Of a DNA stretch of 64,000 bases, positions 54,468 through 63,710 are shown one piece after another; within the stretch, counting starts at the first letter, position 1, and the number at the start of each line of letters is the position of its first letter. The stretch is from positions 310,001-374,000 of the forward strand of contig CYUK01000003.1 in NCBI GenBank assembly GCA_001299455.1, in the 5' to 3' direction. The notes under the pieces are model-generated. The model was not told where the DNA came from and made no database searches. It saw nothing but the letters and a program-made list of their open reading frames with translations. Origin of the DNA: Clostridiales bacterium SIT11. Its GTDB lineage: Bacteria > Bacillota > Clostridia > Tissierellales > Peptoniphilaceae. The position numbers and the translations under genes are program-made.

Positions 54468-54493
54468 TAAATAGCCTTCCTCTGGCTATTTTT
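54468..54493. terminator. Hairpin after pncA
   Basis: AAATAGCC pairs with GGCTATTT around a 7-nt loop, touching the pncA stop. The better T-run is on the plus strand, so termination of the minus-strand transcript is uncertain. Confidence 0.4.
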
Positions 54494-55034
54494 ATTGGAT
54501 TTCGATTCCTTGTTTTTCAAGGTCCTCCAAGTTCTTTTTATGGTCTTCTAAGTCAATATAGCCTAGCAAGTCCTTTAAAAGGACCACAGACTTCCCTGCC
54601 TTTTGAAAGGCAAGAGCCGTTTCCCGGACACAGTATTCGCTGGCAATTCCTGCCAGATAAATCCTGTCCTCCAAGGCCTCCTTTAATTTTTCATCATAGC
54701 CATTCCGGGCTTCAAAGGCAGAATACTCTTCATACCGAGAATCCCGTCCCTTGTAGTAGGTATTTTTTAAAGTCGGCGTAAAAGCCGTCTCCTGAAATTT
54801 CTCACTTAGCTGGGCCCCAACAGACCCTGCCATACAGTGCCTAGGCCACAAGCCCCCTTGACTCTTGTAGCTCACATGGTTTTCCGGGTGAAAGTCTGCA
54901 CTGTAAAAGACCCGTAAATCCCCTTGGTGGTCCTGCAAAAACTGGACAATCTTCTCCACAGCCTGGGGCCCATTGGCCGCCGCCAAACTTCCATCAATAA
55001 AATCATTTTGACAATCAATAACCAGTAAATCCAT
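54492..55034 (-). CDS. pncA: Nicotinamidase
   Basis: Deamidates nicotinamide to nicotinate for NAD recycling. 180 aa of the isochorismatase-like fold. Catalytic triad Asp7 (VIDCQNDF), Lys95 (YYKGRDSR) and Cys135 (ASEYCVRETA). Metal ligands lie in ADFHPENH (Asp47, His49, His53). EEYSAFEA after the Lys is typical of PncA and argues against a generic isochorismatase. GGAGG precedes the ATG. Confidence 0.92.
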   Translation of the reverse strand: MDLLVIDCQNDFIDGSLAAANGPQAVEKIVQFLQDHQGDLRVFYSADFHPENHVSYKSQGGLWPRHCMAGSVGAQLSEKFQETAFTPTLKNTYYKGRDSRYEEYSAFEARNGYDEKLKEALEDRIYLAGIASEYCVRETALAFQKAGKSVVLLKDLLGYIDLEDHKKNLEDLEKQGIEIQ

Positions 55035-55503: not shown

Positions 55504-55701
55504 TCAGTCCTTAAAGTCTTTTGCCCTTTCCTCAATCCAAGCTTGAACTTCTTCTAACTCTTCTACACTCTCTACAAGGTCTTTTATATACTTTTTAGCA
55601 TGCGATTTAGAAACATACTTTTTTTGTTTCTCTTTATTCTTTTCTTTCCACTTATCCCTTGCCCTGGCTTGGGCTGGAGAAGTTTTTAAATCTTTTGTCA
55701 T
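55504..55701 (-). CDS. Small basic protein, related to the neighbouring 64-aa protein
   Basis: 65 aa from ATG 55701 (MTKDLKTSPAQARARDKWKE). Lys-rich N-terminal half, then KKYVSKSHAKKYIKDLVESV and an acidic helix EELEEVQAWIEERAK. GAGGGG about 9 nt upstream supports this start. The frame is open 22 codons further up, and that extension belongs to the interrupted HicB-like frame. It shares the T-S-x-A-Q-x-R-A opening with the next gene. Function unknown. Confidence 0.6.
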   Translation of the reverse strand: MTKDLKTSPAQARARDKWKEKNKEKQKKYVSKSHAKKYIKDLVESVEELEEVQAWIEERAKDFKD

Positions 55702-55971
55702 TTTCTCATCCCCTCTTTCCTTTTTATAAAAGTCCTCTAGTTTAATCCGTAAAAAGAATTCCAAACTTTTCTAGTGAATCAAAGTCTCCTTCGTTTGTAA
55801 ATCTTCTTCATAATCTTGAATAGCATTTTTAAAATCCTGGAATAATTCCTCCTCAGTTTCCCCACAAAAACCTATAACACAATCAACTCCTAAAATATTC
55901 CCGTAAAATTCCTTATCTTCTTCTATATAACTATATTTTCCAATATACCCATTATATTGAATATACTTCAA
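55702..55971 (-). pseudogene. HicB-like antitoxin gene interrupted by an amber codon
   Basis: The frame from 55971 encodes MKYIQYNGYIGKYSYIEEDK, then FYGNILGVDCVIGFCGETEEELFQDFKNAIQDYEEDLQ. This is the classical N-terminal HicB fold (Y-x-G/F-x-G-x-V/I pattern, then GE-x-x-EEL-x-x-F). After TKETLIH a TAG occurs at 55771-55773. The same frame continues KSLEFFLRIKLEDFYKKERG, which resembles the start of the HicB DNA-binding tail, before running into the next gene. No hicA partner adjoins. It may be a 66-aa functional short form or, more likely, a decayed antitoxin. Confidence 0.55.
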
Positions 55972-56275
55972 TAGTTCTCCTCCTTTCCATTCCTCACACT
56001 TTTCTTTGATGTCTTGAGCTCTCTGCCACCTAAAAACTTTTCCTTTGTATACTTTTTTAGAGCAAATAGATGAAGCCTTTCCCTAGCCTATAAGCCAGTT
56101 TTCTCCTCAGTCCATCTTGTAGTCCCTTAAAAAATTCAATCCACTTAATCTCCCCTATAGGCAAAAATAATTTAAAATAGAGCAAGTTTTCTTTACAATG
56201 TCTTGGTCATTTTCTCTTAGATTTATTTTTAGCACACCTACTAGACGTGTCTGAGAGAATAAATCTCTTGCCCTC
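55972..56275. other. Intergenic stretch without recognisable gene
   Basis: About 300 nt of AT-rich DNA between the HicB-like fragment and the tRNA-like element. Short frames here have neither ribosome-binding sites nor recognisable composition. Confidence 0.4.
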
Positions 56276-56352
56276 TGGTGAAAAGAGTAGGATTTGAACC
56301 TATGAGAAATTGGTTGGCAGCTAATTGTTCTACTCAACTTAGCTATACTTCC
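56276..56352 (-). tRNA. Degenerate tRNA-Gly(GCC)-like sequence
   Basis: 77 nt in perfect tRNA register: 7 + TA + 17-nt D arm + 1 + 5/7/5 anticodon arm + 5 + 5/7/5 T arm + 7 + A + encoded CCA. The T loop is TTCAAAT and the anticodon loop CTGCCAA gives GCC (Gly). Every stem has a defect: the acceptor GGAAGTA/TCTTTTC has one mismatch and two G-U pairs, the D stem has two mismatches, and the anticodon and T stems one each. Probably a pseudo-tRNA or a divergent mobile-element tRNA. Confidence 0.5.
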
Positions 56353-56439
56353 GTAAAAAATAAGCTTTTTAATATCATGCTTAGAACATGTATATAGATT
56401 AAAAAAGGAAATAATCAACAATTTTAGGACTTGTTTGGG

Positions 56440-56709
56440 TTACAGATTTCCTGTTTCTAAAATAAATTCTAATCTTGATAATCCACAATCCGGGTAATCA
56501 TCAAAATACTTATCTAATTCGAAAACCCGTTTAATTTCATACATCCAGCGTTTATTAGGTACATTTTCAGGAATTTTACTTTCAAAATACTGTCGTTTTT
56601 CTTCAAGTTCTTCTTTTGAATATTTTTTGCTGATAAATTTTCCATTTTCATAATTTAAATAATTTGACTTGTCATGTAAAAGTCTCCATTTTTCTTGGCT
56701 AATCAACAA
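56440..56709 (-). CDS. Hypothetical protein
   Basis: 89 aa, not recognised. It starts with TTG, GGAGG 6 nt upstream. The sequence is charged and helical with many aromatics (EKWRLLHDKSNYLNY, KRWMYEIKRVFELDKYFDDYPDC) and has neither signal peptide nor membrane segment. Size, composition and neighbourhood of other tiny genes recall immunity-type proteins of polymorphic toxin loci, but no motif proves it. Confidence 0.5.
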   Translation of the reverse strand: MLISQEKWRLLHDKSNYLNYENGKFISKKYSKEELEEKRQYFESKIPENVPNKRWMYEIKRVFELDKYFDDYPDCGLSRLEFILETGNL

Positions 56710-56891: not shown

Positions 56892-57170
56892 TCACTCTCC
56901 ATGATACTGTAATTCCAGATTATCAATTCCTCCTGTAAATTTACCGTCAAATGCCCATTGTCTGAATTTATCTCGTATATCATTTTCTTGAATAGATTTA
57001 CAGGTAGCCAAGTTCATACTTGTATCATCAGACCAAGTTCTCGGTTCTTGGTCCCAGGTTCTCCAACCTGTCATATCTCTACAAGTAAAGCTTCCCCTTT
57101 CCTTAAATTCAAAAGGAACGCCTAAAGCATCTCCAATAGCAAATCCATAAATTGCATTTTTAAGTGTCAT
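56892..57170 (-). pseudogene. N-terminal fragment of an ADP-ribosylglycohydrolase
   Basis: 92 codons from ATG 57170 (GGAGG 7 nt upstream). AIYGFAIGDALGVPFEFKER and PRTWSDDTSMNLATCKSI are the N-terminal metal-binding boxes of the DraG/ARH family (GDALG; S-D-D-T). A complete enzyme is roughly 250-300 aa. This frame ends after KFTGGIDNLELQYHGE, without the central region and the C-terminal metal-binding Asp box. It is therefore a truncated, presumably inactive copy. It overlaps the preceding small gene by 4 nt, so the cassette is still organised as an operon. Confidence 0.75.
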
Positions 57171-57415
57171 ATCCAATCCTCCAATTTATAACTTTTTGGA
57201 ATTCGTCCCTCTTTTTGGTACTTAATAAATTCTTCTTTTGTTAAAGTATTAATTTTAACTCCTTTAGGTATTTTTTTGTTACTATTAAATGGATTATCAA
57301 AAAATAATAATACTTCATCATCAGGAAGCCAATCTGGCCTCAATTGGTCTTCAGTTATCGAATTTACAATAGGAATATATCCATCAGGTTCATGTTTAAA
57401 TTGTTTTTTTGTCAT
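57167..57415 (-). CDS. Hypothetical protein
   Basis: 82 aa, not recognised. MTKKQFKHEPDGYIPIVNSI, then EDQLRPDWLPDDEVLLFFDNPFNSNKK and a C-terminus KYQKEGRIPKSYKLEDWI. Soluble, Pro/Asp-rich. GAGGT lies 9 nt before the ATG. It overlaps the upstream gene by 4 nt (ATGA) and the downstream ADP-ribosylglycohydrolase fragment by 4 nt. Possible immunity protein of a lost toxin module; no direct evidence. Confidence 0.55.
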   Translation of the reverse strand: MTKKQFKHEPDGYIPIVNSITEDQLRPDWLPDDEVLLFFDNPFNSNKKIPKGVKINTLTKEEFIKYQKEGRIPKSYKLEDWI

Positions 57416-57582
57416 TTTAACACTACCTCTAATAAAACTTTTAATTTACCTTTTTCTTCTTTCGATTTAAAATCAACATCATCACAAAATCTCGCATCAG
57501 CTAACTCTTTATTTGTGACTTCAAATGGGGAGTTTAGCTTACTTTTTCTATCAAAAAATTCTCTTAGTGTTTCATTTTTCAT
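57412..57582 (-). CDS. Hypothetical protein
   Basis: 56 aa from ATG 57582 (MKNETLREFFDRKSKLNSPF), GAGGAG 7 nt upstream. Charged, ending KEEKGKLKVLLEVVLK; not recognised. It is the first gene of an overlapping cassette (57582 to 56892), and its promoter region carries an orphan CRISPR-like repeat. Confidence 0.5.
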   Translation of the reverse strand: MKNETLREFFDRKSKLNSPFEVTNKELADARFCDDVDFKSKEEKGKLKVLLEVVLK

Positions 57583-57674
57583 AAGATCACTCCTCAATTA
57601 ATATCTTTAATATTAAATTATCATTTTCAAACCTAGCTTCTCTTAAATTAAATTTTACCATTCTACCTAATTAA

Positions 57675-57680
57675 ATTATA
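57675..57680 (-). promoter_or_regulatory. Extended -10 promoter of the small-gene cassette
   Basis: On minus, TGTTATAAT lies about 95 nt before the first gene of the cassette. The matching -35 position, 17 nt upstream, falls inside the orphan CRISPR repeat (57694-57721). Confidence 0.5.
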
Positions 57681-57693
57681 ACACGTTTCATTA

Positions 57694-57721
57694 GAATCAT
57701 CCCCACCTGTGCGGGTAAAGC
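57694..57721 (-). repeat. Orphan CRISPR-like repeat
   Basis: 28 nt matching the array repeat at all but two positions (GA for GG at the start, CACC for CGCC in the middle, plus-strand reading), same orientation as the array, 415 nt beyond the last array repeat. No second repeat follows at spacer distance on either side. It overlaps the promoter region of the small-gene cassette. Confidence 0.9.
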
Positions 57722-57763
57722 TAATTCCCTCCAATAAAAAAGTACACCAGTTATCGACATAAC

Positions 57764-57970
57764 TTATAGCTTTTTAATTGTTTCAATTTCGTCTTTAAAA
57801 AATGTATAAATCTGACCTTTTATTTTAAGGTCAATATTTTCTTTTTCATCTGGGTTGTCTTCTGCTGGGGTGTAGCTTGAACAAAATCCTTCAAACACAG
57901 TTCCATCCACATCTGTTAAAATTACTTGTTCTCCCCAACATTCCATTAAATTCATAATATTATTCTCCAT
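57764..57970 (-). CDS. Small protein, possibly with a Sm/SH3-like barrel
   Basis: 68 aa. WGEQVILTDVDGTVFEGFCSSYTPAEDNPDEKENIDLKI, then GQIYTFFKDEIETIKKL: alternating short hydrophobic strands with a DxDG turn, like small beta-barrel (LSm-type) proteins common in Bacillota. Function unknown. Starts at 57970 or 57955; GGAG 9 nt before 57955 makes the shorter start possible. It lies between the distal end of the CRISPR array and the orphan repeat, in the array's direction of transcription. Confidence 0.55.
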   Translation of the reverse strand: MENNIMNLMECWGEQVILTDVDGTVFEGFCSSYTPAEDNPDEKENIDLKIKGQIYTFFKDEIETIKKL

Positions 57971-58136
57971 TCTCTATATATGGTACAATATGTGTCCTTT
58001 TTTTCGAGTGATGTATAGCAAGCATATTTGTTTCTTTACCGGCTCATCTAGCATAGTCAATGTTTTTATCAACAATACAAATTTCAATGTGTGTTCTTCC
58101 GTGCCTATCTTTTTTCACTATCCCAGTACCAGCATA

Positions 58137-59384
58137 GGATCATCCCCGCCTGTGCGGGTAAAGCTTTAATTTTTCTCTTGTCTTTTTAGGAGTCTTAGGA
58201 TCATCCCCGCCTGTGCGGGTAAAGCTTTTAGAGAGTTTGAGCCCGAAAAGAACGAAGAGGATCATCCCCGCCTGTGCGGGTAAAGCTTAAATTACATTTC
58301 CTTAGAAAATCCAAGGCTGGGATCATCCCCGCCTGTGCGGGTAAAGCCTATAAAGTCTGCAAGACTAGTGTTTCCAACGGGGATCATCCCCGCGTGTGCG
58401 GGTAATGCGTATTTAATGATGTGATTAATGGGCTTCTGTTAGGATCATCCCCGCGTGTGCGGGTAATGCATATACCCTTCAAGGGTTTTTAAGCTGGGGT
58501 CAGGATCATCCCCGCGTGTGCGGGTAATGCAAGGTACAATGGTTTGTTTTACAGATGGTCGGGGGATCATCCCCGCCTGTGCGGGTAATGCAAGGGATAT
58601 ACAGATGATCCAATCATTAAGTGGGGATCATCCCCGCGTGTGCGGGTAATGCAAGGTACAATGGTTTGTTTTACAGATGGTCGGGGGATCATCCCCGCCT
58701 GTGCGGGTAAAGCATCAATCAGTTTCAACAAGTGGTACAGTCCCAAGGATCATCCCCGCCTGTGCGGGTAAAGCAAATTACCTTGATACAAATATGGACT
58801 ATCGTAGGGATCATCCCCGCCTGTGCGGGTAAAGCTTCACTTGATTATTTTCCGGATATATGCTAATAGGATCATCCCCGCCTGTGCGGGTAAAGCTTAT
58901 ATGGGAAACCTTTTAGTGGAAAAACCACAGGATCATCCCCGCCTGTGCGGGTAAAGCAAAAAATTTAGATGATGATCGAATAGAAGTTCAGGATCATCCC
59001 CGCCTGTGCGGGTAAAGCAGGGTTATATCAAACAAGGATATAATCAGGCCAGGATCATCCCCGCCTGTGCGGGTAAAGCACTAGAACTCACATATAATTT
59101 TTTTAAAGGATAGGATCATCCCCGCCTGTGCGGGTAAAGCTAGCTGAGCTAAGTCTTGGAATGTGTTCAATCAGGATCATCCCCGCCTGTGCGGGTAAAG
59201 CTTAAATTAACATTTTTGTTTGTCCCTACATACAGGATCATCCCCGCCTGTGCGGGTAAAGCGTTTTATGGACCAAGTAATTGACGATTGCCCTGGGATC
59301 ATCCCCGCCTGTGCGGGTAAAGCTTTAAAGGCCTTAGAAAGCCTTGTGTGGCCCCGGGATCATCCCCGCCTGTGCGGGTAAAGC
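58137..59384 (-). CRISPR. Type I-E CRISPR array, 21 repeats and 20 spacers
   Basis: 21 repeats of 28 nt at an exact 61-nt period (spacers all 33 nt), first at 58137, last at 59357-59384. On plus, each repeat begins GGATCATCCCC and ends GTGCGGGTAAAGC in the common form; the hairpin is CCCGC/GCGGG. The crRNA orientation is minus (reading GCTTTACCCGCAC...GATGATCC), the same strand as the cas genes, so the cas2-proximal end is the new end. Repeats 5-9 (58381-58652) are variants ending AATGC, four of them with CGCG in place of CGCC. Spacers 58531-58563 and 58653-58685 are identical. No interruption by insertion elements. Confidence 0.98.
58531..58685 (-). repeat. Duplicated spacer inside the CRISPR array
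   Basis: The 33-nt spacer beginning AAGGTACAATGG and ending GATGGTCGGG (plus) occurs at 58531-58563 and again at 58653-58685, with a different spacer between. The period is 122 nt, two repeat-spacer units. Confidence 0.95.
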
Positions 59385-59413: not shown

Positions 59414-60295
59414 CTATTTCCATATTTCCTGAAATTTATTTACTTTCTTGGAAAGTTGGTAGGTTAACTTTGCATCTTCTAAGGCCCGATGGGGCAATTC
59501 TTCCATCATCCCATAGCTTTCTAGGACGGTTTGGAGTTTGTAATTCTTCAAACCCTTCTTCTCCAGTTTAACATACTTCATTAAGTCATAGGTTTTATTT
59601 TTCAAACTTCCCATCCCCAGACTTTTTAAGGCCTGATTGATAAAGGCTATATCAAAAGAAAGGTTGTAGCCTACAAGGGCTCTGTCTCCTATAAAATCTA
59701 GGCTTTGCCTCAAGGCATCTTTTAAAGGGACTCCTTCTTCCTTGACCAAGGTCTCAGAAATTCCTGTTAAGTCTACAATATTTTTTGGAATTTTAATTCC
59801 TTCATTGATTAAAAAGGACTTTTCCTCAAGCCTTTCTCCTGAAGTTTTTACCAGGCCAATTTCTAGTATCTGGTTTTTAAAGGGATCTAGGCCATTGGTT
59901 TCAATATCTAGAACAACATAGTCCTTTCCTTCTTCTGCAGGTCTCTTCTTTAGGCCTTGAAATTTTCTAGCCTGATGAAATTTTGCCGCTGTGGATGGTT
60001 CTCTTTCTTCTTTACCTGCTTTAGCTAGGAGGACTAGGGGAATTCCTTCGTAATCTATGACCTGACGATAGTCATGGAGACTTTCAAAGTTATAGCCAAT
60101 CTCGTTGTTTGTGTGGTAGGAAAGGGTGGCTTCGCCAGTTTTTAAACTTTCCTTAACCCGCATCCAGAGTTGTTCCCGAATTTTTTTATTAAAGTTTCCC
60201 ACATAGACTCCTGTGGAAATTTCTTGCATCCACTTGCTCAAATCGCCTCTCAGGGAAGGAGGAGCATTTTTTAGGGTAATGACGGTAAAAGGCAT
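59414..60295 (-). CDS. cas2: Cas2e fused to a DEDDh (DnaQ-like) 3'-5' exonuclease
   Basis: 293 aa from ATG 60295 (MPFTVITLKNAPPSLRGDLS). Residues 1-95 are a type I-E Cas2 (TLKNAPPSLRG, GVYVGNFNKKIREQLW, NEIGYNFESLHDYR). A linker to about 120 is followed by a DnaQ-like exonuclease: Asp130/Glu132 (VLDIETNG), Asp215 (GYNLSFDIAF), His269/Asp274 (HRALEDAKL), so all five DEDDh residues are present. In the known Cas2-DnaQ fusions of other I-E systems the exonuclease trims prespacer 3' ends. A TTG at 60304 overlapping the cas1 stop is an alternative start. It is the last cas gene, 29 nt from the array. Confidence 0.93.
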   Translation of the reverse strand: MPFTVITLKNAPPSLRGDLSKWMQEISTGVYVGNFNKKIREQLWMRVKESLKTGEATLSYHTNNEIGYNFESLHDYRQVIDYEGIPLVLLAKAGKEEREPSTAAKFHQARKFQGLKKRPAEEGKDYVVLDIETNGLDPFKNQILEIGLVKTSGERLEEKSFLINEGIKIPKNIVDLTGISETLVKEEGVPLKDALRQSLDFIGDRALVGYNLSFDIAFINQALKSLGMGSLKNKTYDLMKYVKLEKKGLKNYKLQTVLESYGMMEELPHRALEDAKLTYQLSKKVNKFQEIWK

Positions 60296-60300
60296 AGAAA

Positions 60301-61856
<1,556 letters not shown>

Positions 61857-61876
<20 letters not shown>

Positions 61877-62591
61877 GGGAACCTCCTAAATAAGCCATGG
61901 GGTCATGGTCGGTATTCACATCTTGGTCTATGGCCAAAACAGTCATTCTTGCTTCTTTTCGGTAGGTAAACTGCCTGTTTTTTTGGGAAAAAGACCGAAT
62001 AGCATCTCTTCTAAACTTGGTATCTTGGCTATCAACTAAATGGCTTTCCACATAGATAGACAGGTGGTGGAAGTCTCTCATGGTCCTCTTGTAGCCAGGT
62101 CTTGCTTGCCAAGGATATTCCTTCAAGGCCTCAACCAGGGGTTGGTTCACCAGACCTAGGATAAAGTCATAGTTTGGAGGAGTTGACCTCCGCCCTAGGA
62201 AGGGCTGAAAGTACGGATTTTTCAAGGCATGAAAGAGGTCTTCCATCCACTGGTCATTTTCATGGCTTAGACCCACTAAAAAAATGGCATCTTCTAAATA
62301 GTACCGGTTGGTTACATAGTTTTTTTCAAAGGCTCCAGTTTTTGCCTTATATTTTCCTGCAATTTGATAGTCCCGTAAGAGGCGACCTCCCTGGTCCACA
62401 CGAACACCAAAGTCCAGGTCATTTAGGGCCCTGATTTTTTCGTCGTCTTCTCTCCGGTAGCCCAGACTTCCGGCCAAGAGGCCGAGGACACCACTTTTCG
62501 AGGGATGAAGGTCTGTTTGTCTGCTTTCAAAATAGGAGCTGGTCCCCCAGGACTGGAGGGGGGCTGCAAATTTTAAGAGAATTGTTTTCAA
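61857..62591 (-). CDS. cas5e: Type I-E Cascade subunit Cas5e
   Basis: 244 aa. It begins LLKFAAPLQSWGTSSYFESRQTDLHPSKSGVLGLLAGSLGYRR, the characteristic Cas5 (CasD) signature. It caps the 5' handle of the crRNA and contacts Cas8e. A TTG start has AGGGTGA 5 nt upstream; no ATG is available nearby. It lies 9 nt behind cas7e. Confidence 0.94.
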
Positions 62592-62600
62592 AGTATCACC

Positions 62601-63710
62601 CTAATCTTGGTTCACTTCTGGAAGGTAGGCTTGCATTTTTTCTTCAAAATCCTTTAGGAGGGCAGCCAGGCTGTCTTCTTCTATTCCCCCTTCTAAAACA
62701 GGTCCATCAAGGACTTGAGTATAGAGGGTAAAACAGGGTTTTTCTACAAATTTTTCCACCTTTTCATATTCCTTGTAGAGCTTGTCCAAGGATTTTTTTA
62801 CATAACCATCTTGGCTGTGGATTGCTTCTTCAAAGGCCGTTACCAAGTTTACAGGCCGGTCTTCCCTTAGGCTAACAACCAGGGCCTGGGGAAGGGTTTG
62901 GTTGGCAAAGGTGTTGACCTTACCTGTGGGTAGGGACTTGGCAAAAGCTTCAATGTAAAGTTTCAGTGTATTCAAGGTGTTGTCCTTGTCTTTAAGCTGC
63001 CTAGAGAGTTCATGGACAGAAACATTGGCATAGCGGTAGAGGGTGGAGGAATTGAATTCAATGGTCCCCAACATTCCTGCTCCTGCATTGTCTTCTGGAG
63101 CCAGGTCATCCACGGCGGTAAAAAAGTCAAATTCTGTTTGGACTGGATGGGTAGAAATGGCATGGGCTACCTGGGAAGAGGCATCTTCATTTAAGGAAGG
63201 ATTATCAGCCACCATCCGACCGAAAAGGGCAATGTCAATGGCAGGATTTTTCCTTAAAATTTCTGACAGGACCTTTTTGTCCAGGTCTTTTTGATCTAGT
63301 TTATTGTCTGCCCCCAGGTGGCTAACCACAACCTTGGCAAGTTTAATTGCTTGACTGTTGCCTAAAAAGAAGAGGGCCTTGACCTTTTTGTCGGAGGTTT
63401 TGATTCCCAGAGCATTAAAGGCAGTCTCTGCCAAGTCCAAGGCTTCTTCATCGGACATGTCTTTTTCTTTTTGGATTTTTTCCGCTAAGTAGCGGACTAC
63501 ATCCAGACTTCGTGTGCCCACATTGGCTGCATCACTTGTTTCTTTAAAATAGTCCCGCATGGCTTTTTTCCAAGATTGGGAGCTGACTCTAGCTCTTGTT
63601 ATCCCCCCATATTGGGCTGTCTTTGGACTTCCTGTGTCATCTCGGTTGATATTGGATGGGGGCAGGGTTTGAATGGCGTGGATATCTAAAAATAGGCGTT
63701 TATTTTGCAT
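62601..63710 (-). CDS. cas7e: Type I-E Cascade backbone subunit Cas7e (Cse4/CasC)
   Basis: 369 aa. RLFLDIHAIQTLPPSNINRDDTGSPKTAQYGGITRARVSSQSWKKAMRDYF is the diagnostic N-terminus. AIDIALFGRMVADNPSLNEDASSQVAHAISTHPVQTEFDFFTAVDDL and NTFANQTLPQALVVSLR follow. Six copies line the crRNA in known Cascades. It starts within the end of cse2 (11-nt overlap), GAGAGG 6 nt upstream. Confidence 0.96.
   Translation of the reverse strand: MQNKRLFLDIHAIQTLPPSNINRDDTGSPKTAQYGGITRARVSSQSWKKAMRDYFKETSDAANVGTRSLDVVRYLAEKIQKEKDMSDEEALDLAETAFNALGIKTSDKKVKALFFLGNSQAIKLAKVVVSHLGADNKLDQKDLDKKVLSEILRKNPAIDIALFGRMVADNPSLNEDASSQVAHAISTHPVQTEFDFFTAVDDLAPEDNAGAGMLGTIEFNSSTLYRYANVSVHELSRQLKDKDNTLNTLKLYIEAFAKSLPTGKVNTFANQTLPQALVVSLREDRPVNLVTAFEEAIHSQDGYVKKSLDKLYKEYEKVEKFVEKPCFTLYTQVLDGPVLEGGIEEDSLAALLKDFEEKMQAYLPEVNQD

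Follow-up and report, generated by a model that had tools for sequence, protein, structure and literature searches.

Outside the type I-E CRISPR array of the genome studied here stands one further repeat, and the locus raises the question of whether this repeat is a regulatory element or a part of the array that has been set apart. The window, that is, the whole stretch of 64,000 nucleotides analysed (G000:C3:310001-374000), lies within a 1.76-Mb genome. The solo repeat occupies 57694-57721 on the minus strand, has the sequence GCTTTACCCGCACAGGTGGGGATGATTC, and matches the array consensus repeat, GCTTTACCCGCACAGGCGGGGATGATCC, at 26 of 28 positions, both differences being C>T. It is oriented as the array is, and the gap between it and the last array repeat (58137-58164) measures 415 nt (57722-58136), on the trailer side; similarity, orientation and distance are all as an earlier sequence-only reading had reported them. 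The next-best match within the window reaches 19/28, and 20 shuffles reach at most 20/28. The hairpin of the repeat is retained, with a G-U pair in place of a G-C pair and a folding energy of -7.9 kcal/mol, compared with -9.8 kcal/mol for the array consensus. On the whole, our analysis makes it likely that the solo repeat once belonged to the neighbouring type I-E array and was displaced when MuF-type phage DNA split the trailer of that array, and that it is not a regulatory device. The features on which this rests are as follows.

55504-56709, minus strand: remaining small-gene island, with a phrog_2277 86-aa ORF, a HicB-like fragment, a tRNA-like relic and an 89-aa ORF
56892-57176, minus strand: 5' fragment of an ADP-ribosylglycohydrolase gene (PF03747, E 4e-14)
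57167-57415, minus strand: p82, an 82-aa gene of no known family, present in 4 of 130 genomes of the family and adjoining I-E repeats in 3 of them
57412-57582, minus strand: p61, a 56-aa ORF whose C-terminus resembles a short ORF before p82 in G062
57675-57683, minus strand: TGTTATAAT, a possible extended -10 with a poor -35 position
57694-57721, minus strand: solo type I-E repeat (26/28), read as a former terminal-region repeat of the adjoining array
57722-58136, minus strand: 415-nt phage-derived unit, which replaces a 33-nt spacer between array repeat 21 and the solo repeat
57764-57970, minus strand: 68-aa gene of the phrog_1865 family, with a predicted Sm/Hfq-like fold, probably encoding an immunity-type protein
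57963-58136, minus strand: 3' end of an Ntox50 (PF15542) toxin gene, with one in-frame stop
58137-59384, minus strand: type I-E CRISPR array of 21 repeats and 20 spacers of 33 nt
59414-60304, minus strand: cas2-DEDDh exonuclease fusion (trimmer-integrase type)
60301-61239, minus strand: cas1
61241-63710, minus strand: cas6e, cas5 and cas7; cse2, cas8e and cas3 then follow to about window coordinate 68744

The type I-E locus is complete, with cas3, cas8e, cse2, cas7, cas5, cas6e, cas1 and the cas2-DEDDh exonuclease fusion, followed by the 21-repeat array. The leader end of the array adjoins cas2, and transcription proceeds leftwards, leaving the cas genes behind; the side of the solo repeat is the trailer end, which is the oldest. 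On this side the array has perfect repeats (58137-58347), which would be expected had the array originally ended further out. In sequence and orientation the solo repeat belongs to this array, while it departs from the regular 61-nt spacing, lying 443 nt from the previous repeat because the phage unit intervenes. A comparison with the sole congener (G001) concerns the whole region. In that genome the isochorismatase-type gene (window 54492-55034) abuts the gene found from window coordinate 69974 onward, and the small-gene island is missing as one block with the solo repeat, the array and the cas operon, in agreement with its belonging to the CRISPR locus. No uninterrupted version of the array is visible at this empty site. 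The comparison with relatives covers one genome per species, and an uninterrupted ancestor lacking the insert is not among them.

The 415-nt insert is phage DNA. Directly after repeat 21 it encodes the C-terminal half of an Ntox50 domain (PF15542, E 1.9e-6, a match above the cut-off in the genome's own DNA), and behind this lies the intact 68-aa gene, which matches phrog_1865 with E 9e-18 and whose product is predicted to fold as an Sm/Hfq-like barrel (pLDDT 92.6). Intact prophages of relatives (L112, L119) run portal, MuF-Ntox50, phrog_1865 and terminase, and the insert repeats the Ntox50 and phrog_1865 part of this order. The toxin domain is of a known MuF type, Ntox50 being among those reported for MuF proteins of temperate phages (PMC5576092); the MuF N-terminal domain behind a portal gene is intact in L112 and L119, and the window holds the 3' end of the gene only. 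MuF toxin genes are usually followed by a small ORF that probably confers immunity (PMC5576092), and the position of the 68-aa gene behind a MuF-Ntox50 gene makes its product probably an immunity-type protein. A search of NCBIfam found no immunity family, and the Pfam matches to ImmE5 and Endopep_inhib are weak and below the cut-off. Neither the 68-aa protein nor p82 has a match in the phage and viral collections, in which no close relatives of these phages were found, and at the DNA level the region has only the repeat and short matches in relatives. For p82 the structure prediction is of low confidence. Apart from Ntox50, the glycohydrolase fragment and the cas genes, the functions given here are called from position and family membership. 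In the small-gene island, the tRNA-like relic (window 56279-56352, minus strand) scores 31.7 bits with the Rfam tRNA model and is not called by ARAGORN.

The way in which the phage DNA meets the array is seen best at the left junction, which is flush: homology to the toxin gene of the prophage reference begins at nucleotide 1 after repeat 21. At the right junction of the insert the flanking DNA is non-coding, and flushness is judged for the left junction only. Thirteen protospacers of spacers in arrays of the family give the PAM as AA|Y, in which the pyrimidine (Y) directly follows the 28-nt repeat; 97% of 688 spacers start with T or C. In the prophage homologue L119 the sequence at the junction is GATAAA|TATGC, which is the correct PAM for this system. 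Flush left junctions (at most 3 nt from the repeat) occur in the window, in G023 and the second array of G097 (both at a MuF gene), in G020 (a portal gene) and in G062 (a 99-aa gene), and two repeats of G062 have flush junctions on the right side. Among the flush junctions, the PAM is clear in the window and in G023 (four homologues) and ambiguous in G020; homologues of the G097 junction and of the G062 R64 junction show no PAM. In G008 and G115, some trailer fragments stand off from the repeat edge or occupy the opposite strand. As phage DNA starts at the repeat edge, and beside the system's own PAM in the prophage homologue, the joining was probably CRISPR-specific and not a random insertion.

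The same pattern is found in relatives, and many type I-E arrays among those examined in the family are broken at the trailer end. In Aedoeadaptatus coxii (G062), repeats of the G062 type bound four units behind the array, which are 360, 570, 393 and 372 nt long; three of these units, each headed by a repeat, hold p82 and the 5' end of an ADP-ribosylglycohydrolase gene. This is the gene pair that lies behind the solo repeat of the window, the p82 proteins being about 60% identical. The repeat stands at a non-homologous base in the two genomes, with DNA homology starting 236 nt behind it in the window and a few tens of nt behind it in G062. In G003 p82 lies just behind an array remnant, while G065 has an intact pair with no CRISPR nearby, its full-length glycohydrolase (259 aa) sitting behind p82. 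In G087 one unit, of 583 nt, contains a complete 98-aa gene, and another, of 573 nt, contains an Ntox50 end and phrog_1865. In related genera, MuF, portal or immunity-like fragments lie flush against or between repeats of the trailer end, and in G020 and G023 kilobases of phage DNA follow the last repeat. The recurrence of phage fragments at array trailer ends thus extends across several genera, and phage pieces were found only at these ends of arrays. Genome-wide, array trailer zones account for 5 of the 27 matches to phrog_1865, 5 of the 29 to Ntox50 and 3 of the 7 to the 99-aa family, where far below one would be expected from the length of these zones. None of the repeat-bounded units that we read (window, G062, G087 and G068) lacks a complete small ORF. 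A dN/dS of 0.10 between adjacent p82 copies of G062 suggests constraint on the gene, although this constraint could predate the capture. In the trailer zone of G008, beyond the phage fragments, stand two repeats whose hairpin is of another type, spaced 61 nt apart (L047 8373-8461, reverse strand). Behind the solo repeat of G068 lie tandem small paralogous genes of 57-79 aa and 72-73 aa families (L050 4779-5686, reverse strand), which are partly present in G073.

The regulatory interpretation has to be weighed against these results. The sequence-only reading had placed the -35 element of an extended -10 promoter inside the repeat, driving three overlapping small genes. TGTTATAAT is indeed present and the -35 position does fall inside the repeat, but the hexamer there reads GGGATG (2/6); sites from a sigma-70 scan were no commoner than in shuffles, and TGTTATAAT was not among them. 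Read by eye, the solo repeats of G062 have no comparable promoter behind them. The three overlapping genes exist as described, except that the third (56892-57176) encodes only the N-terminal part of an ADP-ribosylglycohydrolase. That reading had also raised control by Cascade in the manner of CreTA, and we consider this together with CrePA and CreR, a crRNA-like repressor of cas genes (PMC12737573): an RNA from the repeat would guide Cascade to repress a nearby toxin promoter or the cas promoter. A near-intact repeat with its hairpin, the -10-like TGTTATAAT behind it and linked genes that include toxin or immunity remnants would all suit such an element. The test was taken from CreTA and CreR, in which positions 1-5 and 7-11 of the spacer-like sequence match a PAM-flanked promoter target (PMC8501985). 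For the 33 nt after the solo repeat, PAM-flanked targets are at chance level, both near the cassette (139 of 300 shuffles equal) and in the cas3 upstream region with the cas promoter (60 of 300 equal). The same test succeeds elsewhere, including in the same genome, so that two elements upstream of cas3 serve as positive controls. One lies outside the window at G000:C3:378982-379070 (L083 4982-5070, minus strand) and comprises a pair of degenerate repeats, matching at 18/28 and 20/28 and spaced 61 nt apart; its spacer-like sequence matches the cas3 upstream region at 1-5, 7-11 and 13-14 with the PAM AA|C. The other is a solitary repeat in G115 (L210 6731-6758, minus strand), the spacer sequence of which matches at 1-5, 7-11 and 13-16, again with AA|C. 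In both cases 0 of 300 shuffles are equal, and by their sequence both elements look like CreR. Compared with the degenerate repeats of the CreR-like element in its own genome, the solo repeat is little degenerated, and the second repeat of a canonical CreA is missing, as had already been noticed. Near the cassette and upstream of cas3 the solo repeat has no CreA or CreR target above chance, and we give a regulatory role of this kind hardly any credence.

Another possibility is that the repeat came with the phage, as an RNA anti-CRISPR (Racr) or solitary repeat unit (SRU) adjoining phage genes. The solo repeat does sit in phage-derived DNA, SRUs are known in phages (PMC10651486), and integration of viral DNA through SRUs has been proposed (PMC8616872). 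Against this, about 40 kb around the MuF regions of G006, G032, G025 and G074 contain no I-E-like repeat, and the phrog_1865 genes found away from arrays have none within 1.5 kb either. A phage-carried repeat would be unlinked to an array, while here the repeat's own array is 415 nt away and the phage modules examined are without a repeat. The solo repeats match the array type of each host, the types of the window and of G062 being different, and a viral contig search found the sequence on no viral contig. We therefore regard a phage origin of the repeat as highly improbable. The remaining suggestion of the sequence-only reading, a relic of an older array split by an insertion with the 68-aa gene, is the one that our results support, with the addition that the inserted DNA is of phage origin and flush against repeat 21.

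Accepting that the solo repeat is displaced from the array, we turn to how the split would have arisen. MuF-type phage DNA, comprising the end of the toxin gene and the next small immunity-type gene, would have lodged between repeat 21 and the last repeat, taking the place of an ordinary spacer. The joining may be due to Cas1-Cas2, if these integrated a fragment of excessive length, or to a phage-matching spacer through which array and phage DNA recombined. Integration is a serious possibility, though we place it somewhat short of even chances, and it is favoured by the right-flush junctions in G062. In the other variant of the same explanation, a spacer matching the phage would have recombined with its protospacer and so fused phage DNA to the array, and later deletions would have left short pieces. 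This variant agrees with the PAM-bearing flush junctions on the left in the window and in G023 and with the kilobases of phage DNA past the last repeat in G020 and G023, and the restriction of phage pieces to trailer ends favours either recombination or long retention. In G062, however, the right-flush junctions (homology reaching 599/600 nt before the repeat) lack, by eye, a PAM-adjacent 33-nt spacer end. We rate this variant only slightly below integration. For the window we also considered a Campbell-type integration through one spacer; judged by eye, the right end does not fit it. An ordinary random insertion, or decay of a prophage at or inside the old array end, would need no involvement of CRISPR. 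Such insertions into arrays do occur, as the array of G128 is interrupted by a HigB/HigA-like pair (L049 6180-7591) and that of G093 by an IS21-type istA/istB pair (L077 4103-6300), both according to our own reading of the proteins; orphan toxin or immunity cassettes of this same kind are also found away from CRISPR (L113-L117), for example before tuf, showing that such cassettes can move without it. By our own estimate, a random insertion into a 61-nt repeat-spacer unit would give such a flush junction with a chance of about 5%, whereas five left junctions lie within 3 nt of the repeat edge, two right junctions are flush as well, and such cassettes are in strong excess at array trailers. A random origin is therefore improbable.

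It is plausible that the intact small genes were kept for protection against phage toxins, although the divergence of p82 may predate the capture. A wider proposal would be that phage fragments of excessive length (about 360-740 nt) are at times acquired as gene-bearing "spacers" by I-E arrays whose integrase is a Cas2-exonuclease, and that intact anti-MuF immunity genes are then selected at the trailer. We consider this proposal doubtful as a whole; if it were true, the CRISPR locus would store protein immunity as well as RNA immunity. What appeared as a regulatory oddity leads to a recurring pattern, in which phage toxin or immunity fragments are joined at the edges of CRISPR repeats in several genera of one family. 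Should the CRISPR machinery do the joining, adaptive immunity would have a route to capture whole small genes; if the joining proceeds by spacer recombination, the pattern would be a by-product of phage targeting or self-targeting. In either case, a solitary repeat close to an array should be called a regulatory RNA only after flush phage fragments have been looked for beside it.

Several known systems resemble parts of this locus. As in MuF polymorphic toxins (PMC5576092), an Ntox50 C-terminal domain is followed by a small gene, with portal and terminase adjoining the intact copies; the window differs in keeping only a 3' toxin fragment and the small gene, lodged in a CRISPR array. Orphan immunity gene clusters (PMC10470768, PMC12247911) are likewise banks of small immunity-like genes without toxins, acquired horizontally, while here the genes lie between CRISPR repeats at the array trailer and their immunity role is putative. 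With Racr and SRUs (PMC10651486) the locus shares a solitary repeat in phage-type DNA; its repeat is linked to an array, is typed like the host array and is absent from the phage modules examined. CreTA, the type VIII toxin-antitoxin system (PMC9458426, PMC8501985), and CreR (PMC12737573) also combine a type I cas locus and toxin-like genes with a nearby repeat that stands apart from the array, but the repeat of the window is without a spacer-like target and little degenerated, and a separate CreR-like element lies upstream of cas3. For the type I-E Cas1-Cas2/DEDDh trimmer-integrase a TT PAM is reported (PMC10284694), which corresponds to AA|Y on the other strand, and Cas2 of the window is likewise a Cas2-exonuclease fusion; fragments of several hundred nt do not figure as integration substrates in the part of that report drawn on here. 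There is also a likeness in form to arrays with degenerate terminal repeats or interruptions (PMC8047081), in which a mutated repeat at the trailer end is set off from the regular array by foreign DNA; in the present case the foreign DNA is a phage toxin/immunity-type fragment that lies flush at the repeat edge and recurs across genera.
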